DNA from: a virus | Strand: one strand, 5' to 3' | Virus record (IMG/VR): IMGVR_UViG_3300030116_008084 | Coordinates: 1 to 35,203 of that record | Length of the DNA stretch: 35,203 bases | Part shown: positions 2,351 to 35,203 of the stretch, piece by piece | How the letters are laid out: each line of letters starts with the position of its first letter | Position numbering within the stretch: position 1 is the stretch's first letter | Made by a program: the position numbers and the translations under genes | The notes under the pieces: generated by a model | Seen by the model: the letters and a program-made list of their open reading frames with translations, nothing else | Told to the model about the DNA's origin: nothing | Database searches by the model: none

Positions 2351-3322
2351 TTAATGTATTGGTATTACTATATCAACATTTTTGAATTTATCCGAACCAC
2401 AAGCATGCCCTGCTAAAGTACAAGTATTGCAAACCCCAGGACATATAAAAATATTTTTACCTTTAAATTTTTGATGTATTTTTCTTTTATCATCATTATT
2501 TAATTTTGTTGTACTTATTTTTTTACCCTCAAAATTAAAAGATATGAATTTACCCCTGTAACATGGGTTATTTAAAATTACTTTATCTTGTTTTAAATAG
2601 TCATATCTAGAACCAGATGACAAATTAAATTTATAATTATCAGGAAAATCAAAGTCCATTAAAGTTAATTCTTTAATTAAGTGTAAACTTTTAGTATAAC
2701 CATATGCTTTAATAAATGGATATTTTTTTAACAAATTAAACCATAAAACCATATTATTTAAGCTGCTAAAATCACCATCATTATAGAGTCTAAAATCTAT
2801 ATTTAAACCCTGTTTTAAATGTTTTTTGTAATACTGGTTCAAATGTTTATCAAGTTCAACTTCTATTAAATTAAAATAATTATCTTCTAGTATTTGATTT
2901 TGTAACCAACTTAAAGTAGCTTTTGGAAATCGCATACTATTTAAACTATAACAATAATTTTCTGTAACACAGGAACCAAACCCAGGACAATTAATTACTG
3001 GTATTGTTGAATAGTTCATAAATTTATGTTTATTATTTCCAGATTTAAACACAGGGAATTTAAGTTCATAATCTTCTGTAATTCTGTTATTAATATGATC
3101 AATAAAAAATATTTTAAATTGATTTAACATTGTATACCAGGATTGATTGCTGTCCCTTTTACAACCTTTTGAACCTTTAAAACCATGACCAGAACAATTA
3201 CTGCAGCAGTTAGGTTTTTTACTTTTAAAATCAATCATTTTATTTAATGTATTTAAAGCCTGTTTGTTTTTATTGTCTTTAATTAGCTTACTTAAAATTA
3301 AAGCCTGTTTTTTTATTTCCAT
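2351..3322 (-). CDS. Gp88-like Cys-rich protein (323 aa)
   Basis: This matches, from memory, the phage 'gene product 88' family of unknown function. The shared marks are CPGFGSC...YCYSLN (residues 112-127), RLYNDGDF (178-185), YGYTKS (207-212) and a C-terminal CPGVCNTCTLAGHACG cluster (294-309). An extra CC..C group lies at 39-43. The three Cys clusters suggest metal or iron-sulfur binding (inference). It is the first gene of the minus-strand early block, transcribed away from the small terminase, and has a CAGGGGG SD. An early role in host takeover or nucleic-acid processing is possible, but nothing in the sequence shows the reaction. Confidence 0.7.
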   Translation of the reverse strand: MEIKKQALILSKLIKDNKNKQALNTLNKMIDFKSKKPNCCSNCSGHGFKGSKGCKRDSNQSWYTMLNQFKIFFIDHINNRITEDYELKFPVFKSGNNKHKFMNYSTIPVINCPGFGSCVTENYCYSLNSMRFPKATLSWLQNQILEDNYFNLIEVELDKHLNQYYKKHLKQGLNIDFRLYNDGDFSSLNNMVLWFNLLKKYPFIKAYGYTKSLHLIKELTLMDFDFPDNYKFNLSSGSRYDYLKQDKVILNNPCYRGKFISFNFEGKKISTTKLNNDDKRKIHQKFKGKNIFICPGVCNTCTLAGHACGSDKFKNVDIVIPIH

Positions 3323-18835: not shown

Positions 18836-19837
18836 ATGGCTAATGCAGTATTTTCACCCAAAGATTTTAAGGCTTGGGTAGTAGAAGAGGCTACAACAGG
18901 AACAGCACCATCATTAACTTCTGGTTTATATCAATTAGATGTGGATTCAATATCTTTCCCATCTTTAAATGTAAATCAAGTTGCTTCTGTTAGGTCGCAA
19001 ACAGGAAGAGTGGCACACATAAATGATTTTTTTCAAGATAATGATATGAGAGCTGTTGAAGTTTCTTTATCAGGAACTTGGCATAAAGATGGTGGTCATG
19101 TAATGTTATTACAAAGTGCTTGTGGTAATGATTTAACACCTGATAGTGTTGCAGATGTAGTTGTGGGCGAAACACAAACAACTAAAGCAGGTAAGTATGG
19201 AGTAACAGAAGCTAATAAAACATTCACATTAGCTTTAGCCTCTCCTGATCAAACTGATGGACAAAATATTGTTATGAAAGGTTGCTTATGCACATCTTTT
19301 ACAATAAATGCAGATATGGGAACAGATGGAGGTCAATATAAGTTTAGTGCTACAATAAGTTCTGGAGTAGTTCCTGATTTAACAGAAGGAAGTGCTTGTG
19401 CAGGTAATGCTTATAGTGCAGACCATGTTGATATGTCAGCTCTTGATGTAAGTGAGCTTAGAGTTGCAAGTAAAACTCCTATATTATCATCTTTTAGTGT
19501 AACAGTAGCTAGTCCTGCTGTTTATACAGGAGTTAATGAAGGTTTAGGATATGCATGTTATGGTAGAGGTGAGGAAATAGAGATTACAGGTAGTGCTACA
19601 GTTAAATTAGATAGTGCAACTATGGAATTACCAAGTGAATTTGATACTCAAACTGTTCATGATAATGCTGATTTACTTACTTTAAATCAAACCACAGATG
19701 AAGCAACTTCAATAAGAATACCATGTGGAGTAATGACTAATGTTGCTTACAATGAAGGCGACATAATGATGTTAGATGTTGAAGTTAAAGCATTAAATAA
19801 TGGTTCTGACGATCCTATTACATTTGATTTAGCATAA
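18836..19837 (+). CDS. Major tail (tube) protein
   Basis: A 333-residue protein rich in beta strands and small residues, with an AAAGGAGG SD, the strongest in this block, as expected for a tube subunit made in many copies. It lies directly before the frameshifted chaperone and the tape measure, which defines the tail tube position. An N-terminal half (VFSPKDFKAWVVEEATTG...) and a C-terminal half with a repeated strand pattern may represent two tube-like domains or a tube plus an Ig-like domain. The function is assigned mainly from order. Confidence 0.8.
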   Translation: MANAVFSPKDFKAWVVEEATTGTAPSLTSGLYQLDVDSISFPSLNVNQVASVRSQTGRVAHINDFFQDNDMRAVEVSLSGTWHKDGGHVMLLQSACGNDLTPDSVADVVVGETQTTKAGKYGVTEANKTFTLALASPDQTDGQNIVMKGCLCTSFTINADMGTDGGQYKFSATISSGVVPDLTEGSACAGNAYSADHVDMSALDVSELRVASKTPILSSFSVTVASPAVYTGVNEGLGYACYGRGEEIEITGSATVKLDSATMELPSEFDTQTVHDNADLLTLNQTTDEATSIRIPCGVMTNVAYNEGDIMMLDVEVKALNNGSDDPITFDLA

Positions 19838-19855: not shown

Positions 19856-20134
19856 ATGGAAATAAAGTTAAAAAGTAAAAAATTACTTAAAGTTAAAAAT
19901 ATTAGTATAGACGAAAGGGATTCTTTACTAGATAGTGTTGAATATCAGTTTAATGATGATGGCACTTCAAGAGGTGTAAAGATGATGCATTCCACTATGA
20001 CTAAATGGATTAGAACATGTATTGTAGATTCATCTGATGATTTTATTAAGAGTTTATCACTAGAAGATAAAACTAAAATTTTTACTGAATTACAAGGTAT
20101 GTTTTTTAAGGGGGAAGAAAAAGCCTCCAAGTAG
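19856..20134 (+). CDS. Tail assembly chaperone, short form (G-type, 92 aa)
   Basis: A 92-residue acidic/basic mixed protein (MEIKLKSKKLLKVKNISIDE...) between the tail tube and the tape measure, the position of lambda gpG. Such chaperones coat the tape measure during tail assembly. The last codons contain a G5 run and an A5 run followed by a stem, where part of the ribosomes should shift to the -1 frame and make a longer G-T product. The SD is AGAGGGAG. Confidence 0.75.
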   Translation: MEIKLKSKKLLKVKNISIDERDSLLDSVEYQFNDDGTSRGVKMMHSTMTKWIRTCIVDSSDDFIKSLSLEDKTKIFTELQGMFFKGEEKASK

Positions 20135-20167
20135 AACTTAATGTCTTAGGGCAAAGCTGTGGAGGCT
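20108..20167 (+). promoter_or_regulatory. Programmed -1 frameshift site with downstream stem
   Basis: Zero-frame codons AAG GGG GAA GAA AAA GCC carry a G5 run (20110-20114) and an A5 run (20118-20122). An 8-bp perfect stem follows, AGCCTCCA (20122-20129) with TGGAGGCT (20160-20167), enclosing a 30-base loop that contains the zero-frame stop. The -1 frame is open only after 20109, which confines the slip to this window. No ideal X-XXY-YYZ heptamer is present; slippage on AAA or GGG in the P site is likely. Confidence 0.75.
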
Positions 20168-20562
20168 GTCCTTATCATAAATTTCCCTACTATGCTATCC
20201 CACCTATACTAATAGATGGAAAAAGAGAATCTATTTATTTTAAAGATAAACAAGATGTCTGGAATATTGTAGATTTATTAATAGAGGAAGTATATGAAAG
20301 TAATAGAAAAGGTAAGGAGTTTGATGTTGCAAGGTCAATCAATGCTCAATTACCTTTTTTTTCATGTACCAACTTTTTTATTGATGATGAAATTCAAAAA
20401 GACATTCAAAGATATATCTATTGCAAGGATAATAATGTGCCTCCCTATGAGGGAGCATATGGTGATCAACCTGCTTTATGGGTTGAAACTTATTTTTTAA
20501 TAAAATCAGCTTTTGCTAAAAAAGAAAAGTCAATGATTGACAAAACTAAAGAGAAGAAATAA
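20110..20562 (+). CDS. Tail assembly chaperone T-domain, made by -1 frameshift
   Basis: An open -1 frame runs from 20110 (just after an in-frame TAA at 20107-20109) to a TAA at 20560-20562 and has no usable start codon at its beginning. From 20131 it reads VELNVLGQSCGGCPYHKFPY and goes on for 143 codons, with a CGGC metal-binding-like pair and a charged C-terminus, so it is clearly coding. A slip at the AAA codon (20120-20122) would join 89 residues of the short form to 146 residues of this frame, about 235 in total. Its stop overlaps the tape measure ATG (TAATG). The T part normally recruits the tail tube protein. Confidence 0.8.
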   Translation, partial: GGRKSLQVELNVLGQSCGGCPYHKFPYYAIPPILIDGKRESIYFKDKQDVWNIVDLLIEEVYESNRKGKEFDVARSINAQLPFFSCTNFFIDDEIQKDIQRYIYCKDNNVPPYEGAYGDQPALWVETYFLIKSAFAKKEKSMIDKTKEKK

Positions 20563-22949
20563 TGGCAACAGAAACATTAACCATAAATTTTAAAGCAAGT
20601 GGCGATAAAGCATTGATAGATGCCTTTAAGGGTATTGCTAATGCACAAAAAGTAGTAACTGCAGCAGCTAAAAAGAATGATAAAGCTACTAAAGCATTGG
20701 TGCATACAGTTAGGAATGCTAGTCCTGCTTACAGAAGATTAACAGCACAAATACAAGCAGCAGGAAAAACCTTTAAAGATATTGGAATTAGTAAGGAAAT
20801 TGCTACAAAAGCAGCATTAGGCAATAGAGTTGCTATAGAAAAATTAAGAAATGCACATAAAAGAGCTACTGCTCAAACTAGGATACTTGGAGGTGCATTC
20901 TCTGTTCTTCGTTCTAAATTACTTATATTTAGCTTTGGTGCTGGTTTAGCAAGTAAAGCAATATTAGATCAAGTAAAGGCTTTTGGTATACAGCAAGATA
21001 GTGTTGAAAGGTTAGCTGTTGCATTTGGGCAAGATGGAGCAAGAGCATTAGATGATTATTCATCTGAACTTCAAAAAGTAACTACATTTGGTGATGAAGT
21101 GACTAATGTAGCTATGGCTACTATTGGTATGTATGGTGCAAGTGCAGAAGCTACTATGAAACTTACAAAAGGCACAATGGATTTAGCTACTGCATTAGGT
21201 ATGGATTTAGTAGGTGCTTCTCAACTTGTTGCTAAAACTATAGGTAGTAGTACAAATGCATTATCAAGATATGGAATTACTATAGATGCTACTGCTTCTC
21301 AAGAAGAAAAAGCAGCTCAAGCTACAGCAGAATTAGAAAGAGTTTTTGGTGGTTTAGCAGAAGCAATGGCTAGAACAACTCAAGGTCAAATTACACAAGC
21401 ACAAAATGCTTTAGGTGATTTACAAGAAGTTGTAGGTGGATTACTAGCACCTACAGTAGTATTTTTTGCAAAAGCATTAAAACTTATGGCAGAGGCTTTA
21501 CAGAATCCAATTATACTTGGAGCATCAGTAACATTTGCAGCTATAGCGACATCAACAGCATTAGCAAGTGCAGGTGTTACAGGATTTACAGCAGTTACTA
21601 AACTTGCTACAATAGCACAAACTGCATTTAATGTTGTTGCAAATGCAAATCCTTATGTATTATTAGGTTCTGTTATGCTTGGTGTAGCTGCTGCTGTTGG
21701 AACTTATATGGTTGGAACAAGGGAACTTACAGCAGAGCAGAAAAAACAAATAGAAGCAACAGAAGCTGCAGCAAAAGCAGATGAAGAAGCAAAAAAAGCA
21801 GCAGAGGATTATGCAAAGTCACTTGAAGATGTTGAAAAAAGTTTAGAGAAAAAAATAGCATTATTAAAAGCTGGTACAGAGATTGAAAAGTTTGCTATTG
21901 AAAATGATATAAAACTAGCAGATGTCAATGAAGATTTGTTTAATGAGTATCAAGCCTTAAATGCTGAACTAGAAGAAGAGCAAAGGCTTCAGAAGTTACT
22001 TGCTAGTGCATATAATAGCACTTTACAGGCTAAAATATTAAGTTTAGAAGCCGATGTTCATGAATTGCAAATTAGAGAGCTAAATGGCGAATTAACAGAA
22101 AACCAAATAGCAGGTTTAAGAAAGTTAGAAAAAAATCTTTATAAACTTTATGATGCACAAAGAACTGTATCTGAAGGAAGTGAAGAATTAACATCTCTTA
22201 CACAACAAGAAGTTGCATTATTTAATGAGTTTGCAGAGTTATTAACTAATGTTGCTGATCGTAGAATAGAATCATTGCAACAAGAATTTCAAGCTAGATT
22301 AGAAATATCTAATGCTACTATATCTCAAATAAATCAAGAAAAAGATGCAGAATTAGCAGCTATAGATGATATTTTTGGTAGAAGAGCTTCTACACATGCT
22401 AAAAGATTAGAATTAGAAAAAGAAACTATTGCAAAGCATAAAGAAAGAGTAGATGCTGAACTTGCAAATCAAGAAAAATTAAGAAAAGAAACTAATAAAG
22501 CATTAGTAAAACAATTTAGAATTAAGCAATCAGCAGATATAGCAGGTACAATTATAGCCACACAGAGAGCCTATATGGAAACATTAGGTAAAACAGGGTT
22601 TTTTGGTATTCCTTTAGCTAAAATAGTATTAGCACAAGGTGCATTAGCAGTTGCAGCTATAGCAGCTCAAAAACCACCTAAAATGGAACAAGGTGGACTT
22701 ATTGGTGGAAGAAGGCATTCACAAGGTGGGACTATGATAGAAGCAGAGCAAGGTGAATTTATAGTAAATAGGAATGCAGTACAAACAGTAGGACTTGAAA
22801 CATTAAACAGAATAAATCAAGGGCAATCTCAAAGAAGCATAAACATTTCTTTCCAAGGCAATGTAATGTCAAAAGATTTCTTAGAAGATGAAGCTATACC
22901 TCAAATAAAAGAAGCATTAAGAAGAGGTGGCGACATTGGAGTTAATTAA
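20562..22949 (+). CDS. Tail tape measure protein
   Basis: A 795-residue Ala/Lys-rich, mostly helical protein directly after the frameshifted chaperone. It has hydrophobic segments near residues 113-130, 310-340 and 365-390, long coiled coils (about 395-480 and 555-650), and a C-terminal GGLIGGRRHSQGGTMIEAE motif of the type seen in many tape measures. It fixes tail length during assembly. At roughly 0.15 nm per residue, the tail would be about 120 nm. The GGRRHSQGG..I.AE..EFIVNR segment closely follows a common pattern in phage tape measures. Confidence 0.92.
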   Translation: MATETLTINFKASGDKALIDAFKGIANAQKVVTAAAKKNDKATKALVHTVRNASPAYRRLTAQIQAAGKTFKDIGISKEIATKAALGNRVAIEKLRNAHKRATAQTRILGGAFSVLRSKLLIFSFGAGLASKAILDQVKAFGIQQDSVERLAVAFGQDGARALDDYSSELQKVTTFGDEVTNVAMATIGMYGASAEATMKLTKGTMDLATALGMDLVGASQLVAKTIGSSTNALSRYGITIDATASQEEKAAQATAELERVFGGLAEAMARTTQGQITQAQNALGDLQEVVGGLLAPTVVFFAKALKLMAEALQNPIILGASVTFAAIATSTALASAGVTGFTAVTKLATIAQTAFNVVANANPYVLLGSVMLGVAAAVGTYMVGTRELTAEQKKQIEATEAAAKADEEAKKAAEDYAKSLEDVEKSLEKKIALLKAGTEIEKFAIENDIKLADVNEDLFNEYQALNAELEEEQRLQKLLASAYNSTLQAKILSLEADVHELQIRELNGELTENQIAGLRKLEKNLYKLYDAQRTVSEGSEELTSLTQQEVALFNEFAELLTNVADRRIESLQQEFQARLEISNATISQINQEKDAELAAIDDIFGRRASTHAKRLELEKETIAKHKERVDAELANQEKLRKETNKALVKQFRIKQSADIAGTIIATQRAYMETLGKTGFFGIPLAKIVLAQGALAVAAIAAQKPPKMEQGGLIGGRRHSQGGTMIEAEQGEFIVNRNAVQTVGLETLNRINQGQSQRSINISFQGNVMSKDFLEDEAIPQIKEALRRGGDIGVN

Positions 22950-25900
22950 TGATAGATTTATCCTCATATAAAGGATTTGAACTAGATATAAAATCTAGAA
23001 CAGTATCGGCTTATCCTTTAATTATTATTGGCAAAGACACAGACAATCCTATCTATATATCAAGTGTAAAGGAAACATTAGCTGATAATGGAGTTCCTTT
23101 AAAATTTAAAGATTATAATTTAAAAATATCTAACATCAAAGAATCTCTCAATGTAAAAGCACATACAATAAAAATATCTAATGTAAGTGTTTCTTTAAGT
23201 AATCCTGGAGATATTAACTCAAAACTATCAGACACATTTATAAACTTAATAAATACTAATGTTGAGATTTATTATAAAACACAATCATGTAAAACATTGC
23301 AAGATTGCTTACCATTGTTCAAAGGTTTAGTTAGAAGATATGACCATAGTTTTAATACTATAGATTTGGTAATAGAAGATTTAACAGATAGTACTTTTCA
23401 TAAAGATGTTCCTATAGCAAATCTTGGAACAAGAAAAGAATGTTTTAGCAAGAAGTATTTTAATAAATATATTCCTATGGTGTATGGAAGTGTGGATAAA
23501 TCACCTATAATACCATATGTTGATAATGTAGGTGATCAAGGTCAATATTATCTTTCTTTAATTGCAGATGATGTTGAGGATGTGACTAAATCAGGAAGAA
23601 ACCTATCTATATATGGATTTGGTGATTCTGAATTAAATCCAGAAGATAGAATACTTCCTACAGGAGCAACAAATGGATTAGAAACAAATCATCCATTATA
23701 CATTTATAAAGGTGATTATTTTAAAGTTTTACAAAACTATGAAGATTCACTACATGATGTAGGTGTGATTGATGGTGTGGAGGCAGTTATATATAATGAT
23801 CCTGAACAATATAGAATAGATTCTGGAAACAATTTTATAAGCATTAGAAAAAAATATGCAAGTGGATACTTTCAAAACCCACCTGCTGCGAATGAATTAC
23901 AAGCATTTAAAGTCCATCATCCGAATCAGTTAGAAATTATGAGAACTGACTTAGAAGTTAATCCTGAAGGTATTGTAGGATTAGAAAGTAGTGTTATAAA
24001 TATAGACACAAGTGTTTATAGACCAGAAGCATCTTTTGATAATAAAGATAAACCATCTTTATTTTTTGATGACATAGTATCTAATGAGTTTGATACTTAT
24101 TCTGAAATACCATATAATGAGTTGAATTTGGAAGATATTGAAGAAGGGTTAGAAGAATTTGAGGTGAATGGTTTTGAAACTAGTAGAATAGACCATCATG
24201 GAGGCATATATTATCCAAATGATACTTCTCCTGCTGTTGATGGATTTAGAAGATGTAATTTTTTATGGACTATCGCTGGATGGATTATAAATAATGCACA
24301 TATATTAAATTCTGTTGATGCATTAGAGTCGGTTAGATTTGTTTCTTTACCTTCAATACATGATATATCATCAAAATTACAAGATTATATTAATAATTTT
24401 TCTAATGGAATTTTAAGTGAAAATGGTCAAACCAATGTATTGTTAAACGATTCATCATTACCTATAGAAATAGTACCACAATATCAAGCAGATATGATGT
24501 TTGCAGGTTCTTGGGCAGAATCTAGTGGTATAAATACTGATTCAAGCGAATTTGTTAAATGTTATTTTAATGGGACTATGAGGTCTAACCCTCCTAGTAC
24601 AGGAAATGATTGGCAGACAAATTCATATGATACAAATGAAGATGGAAGCATTTTAGGGGCACATATGTATTTACCTAATGGAGAAGGTGAAAATACTGAA
24701 ATTTTTGAAGGATTTATAGATGTCACCCCTAATGGTGGTTATGATCCTTTTAATCAGGAATCTCCTTTTACAGAGCAGTATACTGGCACACCACAACAAG
24801 GATTAATACATAACTATTTTAATCCTGAAAATCCTAAAGACAATTTAAGAAGCAGGTCTTATGAAGCAAAATGGAGGCATTATAATACACATGATGGTTA
24901 TGCTAGTGGTACAACATATACTCAGCAGATTCAATATACTAATAGGAAAATATTATCAGGTGGTTTTAGTGAAGGAACAACACCTGCTAAATTTCCAACA
25001 ACAATATTTAAATTTAAATTAGATGAGAATCATCCTGGTAATATTCATGGATACACACATATTTATGTAGGACAATGGATTGAAGAAACAATGGGCACTT
25101 ATCAATCTAATTTTATTAATACAGAAAATAATTTAAAAATCAAATGGATTAATTTGTGGAATGATAGCGATTATGATGTAGATTCTTTGTATAGTTCTAT
25201 AGATGAATTTCCTGTATATACCCCAAAACAACAAATATTTAAAAATTATGCTACAAACAATACCAACTTAGGAACAAAATATATATGTGATTGGAATGGA
25301 ATTTCATTAAATGAAACAACTTCAGGAGCTAATCAAGAATCTATAGTTTCAGATTATATTTATGGAGGTGGTAATTATGGGAGAGGATATGATGACCAAA
25401 CAAGACAAAATTTTATTTGTGAAAGTTATATTGAAGGAGAGTTTGGTGCAAGTTGGTTTATATATTTAGATGATAATATAACTGCTGATAAAACTGGTAC
25501 TGAACTTGCAGAAAACATAAATATAGGTGAACTAAATATAGGTTTTCAATCTTATAATGGCACTAAAGTTCCTAAAAAATGTTTAATTCCAATGAACCAT
25601 ATTGCAAATACTCAAAGTTTTTTAAGTGCAGATGGTTATGGTGTTTTTGGATTAAATACAGGTATTCCATCTTTATTTGGAGATAATAAAAGTAGTGAAA
25701 CTATAATAGCAGGAGATAGCTTAACTGCTGAGAAAAGATTAAGTTTATTATTTCCTTTTTCTGACATATCTAGTACAGATGTTATAGAAAATGAAACAAA
25801 TATGTATGTTTATGGAAAATTAAAATTATATATAGATGCAGACGATCAAAATGATAGCCTTATTGTTAATTCTCTTACAAGTTCCGATAATTTATTTGTA

Positions 25901-27685
25901 CAAGCACTACCTGCAAGTGGAGAAAATGAATCAAGTATTAATTTTAATGTAGAAAATGTTGGTAATAGTAGTGTCAATCTTTTAAGTGTAAATGGTAGTG
26001 AAAATGATTTTATTTCAGGAAACGAAAGGTTATGGCAAACAATAAGTGGTGAAGAGCAAGAAGGTGTTGTTGAAGAAAATGAATATACTTCTATAAATGA
26101 TTTTTTAATTTCAGAGTGGTCAAACCCTGATGATTTTAATGCAATTGCACTTAATTATAGGGTTTTTGGAACTGTAGGAGCACAGGCACAAATTTCTACA
26201 GATATTCATAGCTTTGGAATAGTTCAATTTTCTATTTTTGAAAAAGCATTAGATGGAAATCTTTATGCAGATGTTTTTGGAAGAGCTAATAACTCTGAAG
26301 ATATAGTTGATAATAATTTAAAATACACATTTGATAATCCTACATCTGGAATCTCTTTTATAAAAAAACCATCAGATATTATATATCATTTTATAGAAAA
26401 AGAATTAGAACAAGTTGATGTAGTTAACAGAGATTCATGGCTTCAATCAAGGATTGATGATGTATTAAATGAAATGTCTTTTACTATAACTAATAAAATA
26501 AACTCAAAAAAACTTATAGAAGATATATGTAAAAACACATCTTTATATCCTAAGTTTTCTAATGATGGACAATTTTATTTCAAACAAATTAAAAAAACAT
26601 ATAACTCATCAGACATAACTATTAAACAAAATGATGTTATTTCATTTAATTTTACAAGAACACCTATAGAAGATGTGGTTACTATGGCTAATGTTAAGTA
26701 TAAAAAAGATTATGAATCTAAATCTTTAACTAGACAAACAGGATTTTGTGATGCACATGATTTTTATGGCAATGGTGATAATGGTGCTATTTGCTTAAAA
26801 GAAAATAATACTCAAGTAAATGGATATGATTATAATAGTATGCAATTAACTAGAACTAGTAATATCTTAAATTTTGAATCTCATTATATAAGAAAATATA
26901 GTGAAGCACAAAAACTAAGAGATTACTTGTTAAAACTAAATTGCAATCAACACACAATTATTAAATGTACTCTTCCTATAAAATATATAAATTTAGAAGT
27001 AGGAGATATTGTTGAGTTTGACAAATTATATAATAACACAAAAGCATATGGTGAGGATTATACTAAAAATAATACAAGAAATAATCAAGAAATATATAAA
27101 TATTTTATAGTCACATCTGTACAAAAGTCAATGAAAGGGATTGCAATAGAATGTTATCAGCTTCACAATTTAACTAGTAATTTTTTTCCTGGTTTAGGTA
27201 GTTTATCAAGAAGAAGTGAATTAGGAATATATGGAGCTATAGTTGAAGAAGGTGAGACAGAATTATTTGGAGAGCAATATGAATATACATTAATTCCAAA
27301 TGGACATTTTACATTTGACGATATTGCTATTTTTGAAAATATAGTCGCAAATGATGTAAATTATATGACATCATATCAAAAAAGAAATGCTGATATAAAT
27401 GGTAATGGTTCTATAGATCAATATGATTTAAATAATATTATAGCACTATTTACACCTATACTTATAGATGATGATGTGGACGAAGGTATATCAGAAAATA
27501 TTACTTTAGGCGACATAACTGGAGATGGCATAGTTAATGTAACAGACATAATTGCATTAGTTAATTATATTATGGGATCTGGTGATTTAGAAATATCTCA
27601 GTTAATTGCAGCAGATTTAAACGAGGATAATATGACAAATGTTTCAGATATAGTAGCACTTACAAATCAAATTTTAGGACAGTAA
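22949..27685 (+). CDS. Tail-tip / hub protein with C-terminal dockerin-like repeats (1578 aa)
   Basis: The largest gene. The N-terminal 230 or so residues (VKETLADNGVPLKFKDYNLK...) resemble a tail-tip attachment domain. A long variable middle (about 230-1140) is Asn/Ser/Tyr-rich. Residues about 1150-1430 (INSKKLIEDICKNTSLYPKF..., later KYINLEVGDIVEFDKL) resemble hub domains of tail-associated proteins. Three EF-hand-like dockerin repeats follow at about 1481, 1521 and 1554 (DINGNGSIDQYD, DITGDGIVNVTD, DLNEDNMTNVSD), each a Ca2+ loop plus helix. It probably forms the adsorption apparatus at the tail end. It overlaps the tape measure by one base. Confidence 0.7.
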   Translation: MIDLSSYKGFELDIKSRTVSAYPLIIIGKDTDNPIYISSVKETLADNGVPLKFKDYNLKISNIKESLNVKAHTIKISNVSVSLSNPGDINSKLSDTFINLINTNVEIYYKTQSCKTLQDCLPLFKGLVRRYDHSFNTIDLVIEDLTDSTFHKDVPIANLGTRKECFSKKYFNKYIPMVYGSVDKSPIIPYVDNVGDQGQYYLSLIADDVEDVTKSGRNLSIYGFGDSELNPEDRILPTGATNGLETNHPLYIYKGDYFKVLQNYEDSLHDVGVIDGVEAVIYNDPEQYRIDSGNNFISIRKKYASGYFQNPPAANELQAFKVHHPNQLEIMRTDLEVNPEGIVGLESSVINIDTSVYRPEASFDNKDKPSLFFDDIVSNEFDTYSEIPYNELNLEDIEEGLEEFEVNGFETSRIDHHGGIYYPNDTSPAVDGFRRCNFLWTIAGWIINNAHILNSVDALESVRFVSLPSIHDISSKLQDYINNFSNGILSENGQTNVLLNDSSLPIEIVPQYQADMMFAGSWAESSGINTDSSEFVKCYFNGTMRSNPPSTGNDWQTNSYDTNEDGSILGAHMYLPNGEGENTEIFEGFIDVTPNGGYDPFNQESPFTEQYTGTPQQGLIHNYFNPENPKDNLRSRSYEAKWRHYNTHDGYASGTTYTQQIQYTNRKILSGGFSEGTTPAKFPTTIFKFKLDENHPGNIHGYTHIYVGQWIEETMGTYQSNFINTENNLKIKWINLWNDSDYDVDSLYSSIDEFPVYTPKQQIFKNYATNNTNLGTKYICDWNGISLNETTSGANQESIVSDYIYGGGNYGRGYDDQTRQNFICESYIEGEFGASWFIYLDDNITADKTGTELAENINIGELNIGFQSYNGTKVPKKCLIPMNHIANTQSFLSADGYGVFGLNTGIPSLFGDNKSSETIIAGDSLTAEKRLSLLFPFSDISSTDVIENETNMYVYGKLKLYIDADDQNDSLIVNSLTSSDNLFVQALPASGENESSINFNVENVGNSSVNLLSVNGSENDFISGNERLWQTISGEEQEGVVEENEYTSINDFLISEWSNPDDFNAIALNYRVFGTVGAQAQISTDIHSFGIVQFSIFEKALDGNLYADVFGRANNSEDIVDNNLKYTFDNPTSGISFIKKPSDIIYHFIEKELEQVDVVNRDSWLQSRIDDVLNEMSFTITNKINSKKLIEDICKNTSLYPKFSNDGQFYFKQIKKTYNSSDITIKQNDVISFNFTRTPIEDVVTMANVKYKKDYESKSLTRQTGFCDAHDFYGNGDNGAICLKENNTQVNGYDYNSMQLTRTSNILNFESHYIRKYSEAQKLRDYLLKLNCNQHTIIKCTLPIKYINLEVGDIVEFDKLYNNTKAYGEDYTKNNTRNNQEIYKYFIVTSVQKSMKGIAIECYQLHNLTSNFFPGLGSLSRRSELGIYGAIVEEGETELFGEQYEYTLIPNGHFTFDDIAIFENIVANDVNYMTSYQKRNADINGNGSIDQYDLNNIIALFTPILIDDDVDEGISENITLGDITGDGIVNVTDIIALVNYIMGSGDLEISQLIAADLNEDNMTNVSDIVALTNQILGQ

Positions 27686-30647: not shown

Positions 30648-31220
30648 TTAAAACTCCATGTAGTTTTCACCATCATAATTCAGGTCATATTCATAAAAAT
30701 TTGATCCATCAACTTCTATTCCAAGAGATGTCCATCCTGGTCTTTCTTTTCTAGCAAATAATTCTATATATCCAGGGTGTGAAACTCTTTCTATATATTC
30801 ATACATTTTAACAGGCTTCCTGGAATGTATTGTTTTAGGTTCTTCAATGATTGTTTTACCTTGCTGCCTTTTACCATCTTTGGTTTTATATGGTAAAGCA
30901 TTTCCTTTTCTACCAAACAAACAATGCTCTGTGATACCCCTATAATATTGACCTAAACCTGCCCTATCTTTAAGCCAGGTAATAGTAGTTATATATTTAT
31001 ACCCCCAGGCATCCATAACTTTCAACCCATCTAACAAGAAATTATTAGTAACCCATAAATATAAATGAGAATCTTCATGCATAAATTCATTGATTCTTTT
31101 ATTCATAGCCATTATATCTTTTGTAGGCATTAATTCGTAATGTTTATCAGCACCTCTCTTTATTTTACCACCACCAACTTCTTTCCATGGAGGATCAGCA
31201 TATAATGTTCTAAATTTCAT
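30648..31220 (-). CDS. MT-A70 family DNA adenine-N6 methyltransferase
   Basis: A 190-residue protein with the catalytic DPPW at 9-12 (TLYADPPWKEVGGG), an SHLYLWVTNNFLLDGLKV segment, a TEHCLFGRKG segment and the late helix and strand (KMYEYIERVSHPGYIELFAR), all typical of MT-A70 enzymes of phages. It would methylate adenine in phage DNA, protecting against host restriction or marking the DNA. No cognate restriction gene is present. It overlaps an 18-residue ORF by ATGA and is bracketed by direct repeats, indicating insertion. Confidence 0.92.
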   Translation of the reverse strand: MKFRTLYADPPWKEVGGGKIKRGADKHYELMPTKDIMAMNKRINEFMHEDSHLYLWVTNNFLLDGLKVMDAWGYKYITTITWLKDRAGLGQYYRGITEHCLFGRKGNALPYKTKDGKRQQGKTIIEEPKTIHSRKPVKMYEYIERVSHPGYIELFARKERPGWTSLGIEVDGSNFYEYDLNYDGENYMEF

Positions 31221-31273
31221 CTTTCATTATTCCATTTTTTTATTTTTCTTTTTTTACATTCTTCACAAATCAT
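31217..31273 (-). CDS. Truncated CxxC micro-ORF (18 aa)
   Basis: An 18-codon ORF beginning MICEECKKRKIKK, starting inside the end of the C5 methyltransferase gene and ending by ATGA overlap on the MT-A70 start. It duplicates the first 13 codons of the microgene at 30498-30647. It may be the remnant left when the MT-A70 gene was inserted, now serving as a coupling leader. Protein-level function is doubtful. Confidence 0.35.
   Translation of the reverse strand: MICEECKKRKIKKWNNER
31235..31269. repeat. 35-bp direct repeat, copy B
   Basis: The partner of 30609-30643, placed just upstream of the MT-A70 start in gene direction and overlapping the last codons of the C5 methyltransferase. The copies differ only outside the 35 bases (CCAT or TCAT next to the end). 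This supports gain of MT-A70 by recombination between or at these sequences. Confidence 0.85.
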
Positions 31274-32387
31274 ATATTTTCCTAACTATAGCTTCTATTA
31301 CTGGCACACTAACTGCATTGCCTAATTGTTTGTATCTTTGGGTATCTGATTGTTCATCTGTCCAACCATCAGGAAATCCTTGCAGCCTTTCACATTCAAT
31401 AGGTGTTAATCTTCTAATTTTAGTATTATCTGTATAATAAGGCTGCTGAGATTGACTAGTAGATATAGCACGAGATAATCCATTATTGCTTTCTAGAACC
31501 CTTTCTCTTGGCAACCAATTACCTTTTGGTTTATCAGATTCAGGTAAAATGCCATAAGTTTTAAAAGTAACATCATATAACCCTGTCTTAGCACCTCCTC
31601 CACCACCATCAGTTATAGTTTTAGACACTCCATTTGTATTATAAACTCTGTTTGCTTGATTATCTTTTCCAAGGTTTCCAATCTGCTTTAATACTTGTTT
31701 TGGCTGTTTATAATCAGTTGCACTTAAACAAAACATTATTCCATCTATAGAATGTATATCTCCTCTCTGACCACCTGTTCCAGAATGTCCAACAATATTT
31801 ATTTCTTTAGAACCAGCTTTGATGTCATTTTTTCCGATAGGAAATACTTTTCTTCCACTTCTTCTTCCATTATATCTACCAAAGATAAAGATTCTTTCTC
31901 TATTTTGGGGGAGAAACCAGCGAGTATTAACCACTTGGCATTCAAGGGTATAATTAAGGTCGGCAAGAATTTTGTATATTGTAATAAATGTTCGCTTATT
32001 GTCATGGCTAAGTAAACCTTTAACATTTTCGAGTAATATACAGGGTATGGGTTTTCCATTTTTAATGTAATCTTCGAGAATCCTTGCGATTTCAAAAAAG
32101 AGAGTACCTCTGGTGTCTTCAAATCCTCGTCTTTTTCCTGCAATACTGAAAGCCTGACAAGGAAATCCTCCTGTGAGTAAATCGATTTTTTCTCCTTTAA
32201 GTTTTTTGTATGAAACACTTTCAATTGATCCAAGTTCTGTTGCATTTGGAAATCTCCTTTTATAAGTTTTGTTTGCATATTTATCTATATCAGAAAAATA
32301 ATGTTTATTAATTTCAATACCTGTTTTTTCTACACCTAAACTAAAACCACCTATACCACTAAATAAATCTAAAATATTAATCTTCAT
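31263..32387 (-). CDS. DNA cytosine-C5 methyltransferase
   Basis: A 374-residue enzyme with all main motifs in order: DLFSGIGGF (I, 7-15), GGFPCQAFSIAG (IV, catalytic C77), LLENVKG (VI, 118-124), QNRERIFI (VIII, 161-168) and, near the end, RRLTPIECERLQGFPDGW (IX) and QLGNAVSVPV (X). The variable target-recognition region lies at about 175-300. It transfers a methyl group from SAM to cytosine in a specific site, probably protecting phage DNA. It is complete in length. No partner endonuclease of a restriction system is adjacent. Confidence 0.96.
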   Translation of the reverse strand: MKINILDLFSGIGGFSLGVEKTGIEINKHYFSDIDKYANKTYKRRFPNATELGSIESVSYKKLKGEKIDLLTGGFPCQAFSIAGKRRGFEDTRGTLFFEIARILEDYIKNGKPIPCILLENVKGLLSHDNKRTFITIYKILADLNYTLECQVVNTRWFLPQNRERIFIFGRYNGRRSGRKVFPIGKNDIKAGSKEINIVGHSGTGGQRGDIHSIDGIMFCLSATDYKQPKQVLKQIGNLGKDNQANRVYNTNGVSKTITDGGGGGAKTGLYDVTFKTYGILPESDKPKGNWLPRERVLESNNGLSRAISTSQSQQPYYTDNTKIRRLTPIECERLQGFPDGWTDEQSDTQRYKQLGNAVSVPVIEAIVRKIYDL

Positions 32388-34527: not shown

Positions 34528-34697
34528 TTTTTAGCCTTTCTTTTTACTTTTTTATTATACCAATTCTCAAAACTTGGTGTAAACTTTTCTGGAAGGTGTG
34601 CAGTTTGCATAGAATACTGACACTCCACACAATTATCTACATCCATAAAATGATTGCAGCTATAATTATCTGGTATTGTATTTTTTATTTTACTCAT
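34524..34697 (-). CDS. Cys-containing small protein (57 aa), complete copy
   Basis: A 57-residue protein starting MSKIKNTIPDNYSCNHFMDV with a C-x-H then CVEC arrangement (C14, H16, C23, C26), followed by a basic Lys-rich end. The spacing could bind one zinc ion. A GAGGAGGAAG SD is shared with the end of the upstream gene, which it overlaps by 8 bases. A partial second copy begins the window (1-89). The function is unknown. Confidence 0.65.
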   Translation of the reverse strand: MSKIKNTIPDNYSCNHFMDVDNCVECQYSMQTAHLPEKFTPSFENWYNKKVKRKAKK

Positions 34698-34914
34698 CTT
34701 CTTCCTCCTCTATTGGATTAAATGTTAAATCATTAATATCCATATCATCTTTATCCATACCATCCTCTAACTCTGATATAGTTATTAATACATTTTTATT
34801 TAATATTTTACATATACGATTTTCAAGTTCATTAGCTATTTCTTCAAAATCATAATGTTTCTCATTTGTCTGCTCATCTTCCCAATGATATAGAGGTATT
34901 TTTATTTCTTTCAT
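34690..34914 (-). CDS. Hypothetical early protein (74 aa), shorter allele
   Basis: The short version of the protein at 102-374. The core of about 40 residues is identical, but the N-terminus reads MKEIKIPLYHWEDEQTNEKH and the C-terminus ends EEEEDE, overlapping the next gene by 8 bases. Its ATG overlaps the previous stop (TAATG). It is acidic, with no known family. Confidence 0.75.
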   Translation of the reverse strand: MKEIKIPLYHWEDEQTNEKHYDFEEIANELENRICKILNKNVLITISELEDGMDKDDMDINDLTFNPIEEEEDE

Positions 34915-35144
34915 TACTTGTCCCTTTCTTTTAAAAACTTTACATACAATTGATTATTATCTTGTGGGTTTTTTAAAACTCTTAATAATGATTCAGCATC
35001 AAACTTTTTAACATTAACAAGCCACACTAAAAACTCAAAACTGCTCTCATTAACCTTAATATCAAGTTCCTTATAATTATACATCTCTTCTTCAACTATT
35101 AGCTGCATTTCACTATATTCTGGATCATTCATGTAATCTACCAT
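34914..35144 (-). CDS. Hypothetical early protein (76 aa)
   Basis: The near-identical counterpart of the 80-residue protein at 361-603, differing in a few substitutions (for example NESSFEF for NESSFDF) and a shorter end (ERDK). A GAGGAGG SD lies before the ATG. The function is unknown. The pattern of mostly conservative changes is what strain variation would give. Confidence 0.75.
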   Translation of the reverse strand: MVDYMNDPEYSEMQLIVEEEMYNYKELDIKVNESSFEFLVWLVNVKKFDAESLLRVLKNPQDNNQLYVKFLKERDK

Positions 35145-35203
35145 TTACTTTTCCTCCTCAAGACAATCATAACACATTCTCTCTTCTGTGTCCATCATAT
35201 CTT
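35145..35203 (-). CDS. CxxC microprotein, cut off by the window end
   Basis: The 3' end of the counterpart of the 32-residue gene at 604-702. It reads DMMDTEERMCYDCLEEEK then stop, with the start beyond the window. It is the last element of the diverged terminal repeat. Confidence 0.6.
   Translation of the reverse strand, partial: DMMDTEERMCYDCLEEEK

Follow-up and report, generated by a model that had tools for sequence, protein, structure and literature searches.

This locus raises the question of how an open frame that has no start codon, and that fills the gap between two tail genes, could be translated. The window, i.e. the whole stretch of 35,203 nt analysed here, comprises positions 1-35,203 of IMGVR_UViG_3300030116_008084, and the features of the locus all lie on its + strand. 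In order, they are a putative major tail protein gene (18836-19837), which has no PHROG match and is named by its position; G, a short zero-frame, tail-chaperone-like ORF of 92 aa (19856-20134) that ends in TAG at 20132-20134; T, a -1-frame domain of 150 codons plus TAA (20110-20562); and the tape measure protein gene (20562-22949), which matches phrog_27166 (tail length tape measure protein, E 1.1e-8). An earlier note had described T as a 453-base open frame without a start codon between G and the tape measure gene, and had read G and T as a pair of the lambda G/GT type. Its coordinates and lengths were right to the base: the 453-nt frame begins at 20110, overlaps the 3' end of G in the -1 frame relative to it, and closes with a TAA (20560-20562) that overlaps the tape measure ATG at 20562. 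The 427-nt gap that the note had placed between G and the tape measure gene was likewise confirmed (20135-20561). Furthermore, the first 109 codons of T contain no ATG, GTG or TTG. As set out below, G and T very probably encode a pair of tail-assembly chaperones, expressed through programmed -1 ribosomal frameshifting similar to that of lambda G/GT, a reading drawn from comparison of sequences.

The T frame has the properties of a coding sequence. At 30% GC, the chance of 150 stop-free codons is ~4e-6. Across the gap, T scored +0.126 per codon and was the only one of the six frames to score as coding, in line with the coding-like codon use seen earlier; the other five frames scored -0.2 to -0.9 and held 9-20 stops. 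Searches of IMG/VR with single sequences and alignments returned 1, 14, 25, then 304 and 336 confirmed stretches, and the T translation is conserved in >300 IMG/VR stretches, with 66-75% identity between the window and its nearest relatives and about 45-60% for many others. Homologues of G were found in 25 IMG/VR loci. From the best 80 of the 304 and the best 80 of the 336 stretches, together with the window, 131 distinct contexts were obtained after removal of identical 150-nt contexts; these are related to one another, so that counts across them are not independent. T lies in the -1 frame relative to G in 131/131 contexts. An error in sequencing or assembly, or decay of a gene broken by a frameshift mutation, would account for the split frame itself and for nothing beyond it. 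However, the same split recurs in all 131 contexts, and both G and T are conserved as protein across relatives from many metagenomes; the relatives thus refute this explanation, whose probability is negligible. The surrounding gene order is conserved as well, with a homologue of 18836-19837 upstream in 119 of the 124 relatives with enough sequence at the locus and one of the tape measure gene downstream in 127 of 129. At the sensitivity used, the INPHARED phage records yielded no relative of G, T or the upstream gene, and a scan of GTDB genomes yielded none of T.

Several observations concern other parts of the window. Its ends (1-662 and 34609-35203) form a direct repeat of about 600-660 nt with 84% identity, each copy carrying the same small-gene pair; the repeat may have arisen by gene duplication or be a terminal redundancy that has diverged. 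A presumed tail protein of 1578 residues (22949-27685) carries a C-terminal type I dockerin domain (PF00404, E 8.8e-13, residues 1520-1576), seemingly an uncommon feature among phage tail proteins. Other genes encode a gene product 88-like protein (2351-3322), an MT-A70 methylase (30648-31220) and a C-5 cytosine methylase (31263-32387).

T could in principle be translated independently of G, from an internal and possibly non-standard start after the G stop. Some ATG is present near the beginning of the T frame in 36/131 contexts (among the first 90 contexts, 14 have it 11 nt downstream of the G stop), and T-like entries in BFVD are only 89-116 aa long. However, these ATGs occupy variable sites, often after the CxxC motif, and those inspected had no clear Shine-Dalgarno sequence before them. 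In 72/131 contexts, including the window, there is no ATG, GTG or TTG between the upstream stop and ~75 nt past the G stop. The earlier note had named an in-frame start in relatives, or loss of their open -1 frame, as findings that would speak against a frameshift; no conserved start was found, and the -1 frame remains open in every context. An independent start would also leave unexplained the fixed heptamer, the G-ending codon before it and the stem described below, and is very improbable.

A slippery heptamer, G GGG GAA (zero frame AAG GGG GAA), lies at 20110-20116 in the window, and a slip heptamer occupies this one fixed position, the first of the T alignment, in zero-frame phase in 131/131 contexts. 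It reads GGGGGAA in 110, GGGGGAG in 15, GGGAAAC in 5 and GGGAAAA in 1. The third base of the preceding codon is G in 130/130 contexts in which that codon is complete, even though third-position G amounts to 6.6% in the genes of the window; ten codons for nine amino acids occur there (TTG, GTG, CTG, ATG, ACG, GAG, CAG, GGG, AAG and TCG). The -1-frame stop reported earlier at 20107-20109 is indeed present, a TAA, and it adjoins the slip site and marks the upstream bound of the shift. Such a stop adjoins the 5' side of the heptamer in 8/131 contexts (the window, L061, L097, L106, L107, L108, L109 and L192), and in L097, L106, L107 and L108 it is TGA; the automatic count was 9, from which L086 was excluded because its record begins there. 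In 36 other contexts, a zero-frame stop adjoins the 3' side (GGGGGARTAG; GGGGGAATAG or GGGGGAGTAG). Assuming one mechanism throughout, stops that abut the heptamer on either side leave only the heptamer itself as the site of the shift. The contexts with the stop directly after the heptamer form a clade (L112; e.g. L125, L142 and L163), in which slipping may compete with termination. Among relatives, the distance from the start of the heptamer to the end of the G stop is 25, 31 or 10 nt.

The earlier note had pointed to runs of G5 and A5 in the overlap and had called the slip sequence non-textbook. Both runs are present in the window (20110-20114 and 20118-20122), but only G5 matters: relatives have GACAAA, GGGAAA or GGCAAA in place of A5, which was rejected as a slip element. 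The runs nevertheless suggest a second route to the fusion, in which RNA polymerase would add or drop bases on G5 or A5 and GT would be read from a mixed mRNA. Runs of five are short for polymerase slippage. Moreover, the A5 run is not conserved, the run at the site always has the same zero-frame phase, and in six relatives (L086, L097, L102, L106, L107 and L108) the lambda-type GGGAAAC or GGGAAAA replaces GGGGGAA, where slipping on a G run is not expected. This switch to a lambda-type X XXY YYZ sequence argues for ribosomal and against polymerase slippage. The six heptamers conform to the classical pattern of tandem slippage. GGGGGAA does not, since GGG re-pairs fully but GAA to GGA requires a central G:U pair, and the description as non-textbook is thus formally right for the A site; the same central G:U explanation has been given in PMC10885494. 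Even so, GGGGGAA is a documented tail-chaperone slip site, with about a thousand motifs in SEA-PHAGES annotations (PMC10885494), and has also been reported for tail genes of corynephage phi16 (PMC5506516).

Downstream of the heptamer, the 8-bp stem proposed earlier is real. Its 5' arm (AGCCTCCA, 20122-20129, with an extension to 20132) begins 5 nt after the heptamer and pairs with a 3' arm (TGGAGGCT, 20160-20167, with an extension at 20156-20158), giving 8 bp plus 3 bp beyond a bulge. Its folding energy in the window is -17.9 kcal/mol, with a z of -2.12 relative to dinucleotide shuffles. Because the 3' arm also encodes part of the conserved CGGC residues, conservation alone proves little, and we therefore shuffled the codons downstream of the overlap synonymously while holding the 5' arm fixed. 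Compared with the shuffle mean, the native fold was stronger in 130/131 contexts, with a mean z of -1.85, and in 89/90 contexts of a smaller set. Across 68 distinct aligned rows, 87.7% of cells were paired, versus 45.9-51.9% for slid versions of the stem. The covariation score was 0.200, versus 0.150 +/- 0.008 for shuffled alignments, none of 500 shuffles reached it, and sliding gave at most 0.062. Compensatory changes are present: both sides had changed in 33 cells versus 14.7 +/- 4.6, pair 14-57 is G-C in 41 and C-G in 15, and pair 22-48 takes five types. In the L070 group, in which the CGGC residues are replaced by CQGC, the usual 3' arm is unable to pair, and GAGGCT slightly upstream takes over. 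A spaced, covarying stem is what ribosomal slipping needs, and polymerase slippage is, on all these grounds, a very unlikely source of the fusion. A pseudoknot between GGG in the loop and a downstream CCC was considered and dropped, since loops such as that of L022 have no partner, and inspection by eye revealed no conserved pseudoknot.

Upstream, a tentative third element may contribute to ribosomal frameshifting. In the window, AAGG at 20094-20097, 16 nt upstream of the slip site, could act as a stimulatory Shine-Dalgarno-like sequence. Such 4-mers occur at -20 to -7 (12-19 nt before the slip site) in 57/130 contexts (44%), versus 16.5% in control stretches of these genes, which is no more than suggestive given that the sequences are related.

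Taken together, the gene order, the slip heptamer, the covarying stem and the open -1 frame in 131/131 contexts support the lambda G/GT-type reading, and the heptamer and stem proved to be conserved in relatives, where the earlier note had suggested looking for them. Most ribosomes would read G and terminate at 20134. A minority would pause when they meet the stem (20122-20167), while tRNA-Gly and tRNA-Glu occupy GGG and GAA, respectively; these ribosomes would then move back by one base on GGGGGAA (20110-20116) and translate the T frame as far as 20562. With the shift at GGG GAA, the predicted GT fusion has 235 residues, in agreement with the length of roughly 235 expected earlier. On the lambda model, the partner of G would be the tape measure protein, and the T domain would recruit the tail tube subunit. 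We infer slippage itself, its efficiency and the chaperone functions from these features and the lambda precedent.

In lambda, gpG and gpGT are tail assembly chaperones produced by a -1 frameshift at GGGAAAG; G exceeds GT by about 30:1, and both are absent from virions. The locus resembles this system in its short ORF, the -1 shift near its 3' end, the T domain without a start codon and the position of the pair between tail tube and tape measure genes, the major tail gene of the window being named by position; six relatives additionally have GGGAAAC or GGGAAAA at the site. It differs in that the window has GGGGGAA followed by a strong covarying stem, and in that no resemblance of its proteins to known families was detected in sequence or fold. 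The lambda mechanism and gene position are widely conserved among phages despite low sequence similarity (PMC5009743). Actinobacteriophage frameshift genes of the SEA-PHAGES set ('fivetwo' motif, PMC10885494) have the same heptamer in the same kind of gene; however, they belong to high-GC phages, whereas the window has 30% GC and G5 is rare, and their proteins are unrelated to those of the window by any search made. In corynephage phi16, the predicted gp14A frameshift (PMC5506516) likewise involves tail assembly genes, GGGGGAA, a proposed internal Shine-Dalgarno sequence and a downstream RNA structure, but the latter is proposed to be an H-type pseudoknot rather than a hairpin as in the window.

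The mechanism is thus a known one, and the protein families are previously undescribed. The search of T against tail chaperone profiles that the earlier note had proposed gave no relevant match in PHROGs, Pfam or NCBIfam, and comparison of G and T with these databases and with PDB sequences gave no significant relevant match; weak NCBIfam integrase matches (5/23 members, best 7.9e-4) were judged spurious. AlphaFold2 gave confident models of T and G, with a mean pLDDT of 89.5 and 84.1, respectively, neither of which matched a PDB fold at E <= 0.001. T matches three viral entries without a name in BFVD (89-116 aa, E 7e-8 to 5e-5), and their short length fits truncated annotation. Homology of G or T to known tail chaperones was thus found neither in sequence nor in fold, which genes of this kind do not require; since no known family or solved fold matches them, they are assigned to this kind by architecture and mechanism. 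The cysteines at T residues 17, 20, 86 and 105 are invariant or nearly so, and we guess that T binds metal through them.

One proposition, which we regard as evenly balanced, is that a large group of uncultivated phages carries in T a tail-chaperone domain not described before, which may bind metal through CxxC and residues 86 and 105, and that GGGGGAA, GGGAAAC and stop-abutting slip sites interchange within one lineage. In a group of >300 viral contig stretches, annotation that depends on start codons overlooks the T domain or cuts it short, and Pfam, PHROGs and NCBIfam contain no entry for the family with a known function. It also provides a natural experiment on slip sites, in which one set of orthologues has two types of heptamer at a single position, together with stops that bracket it and a covarying stem.
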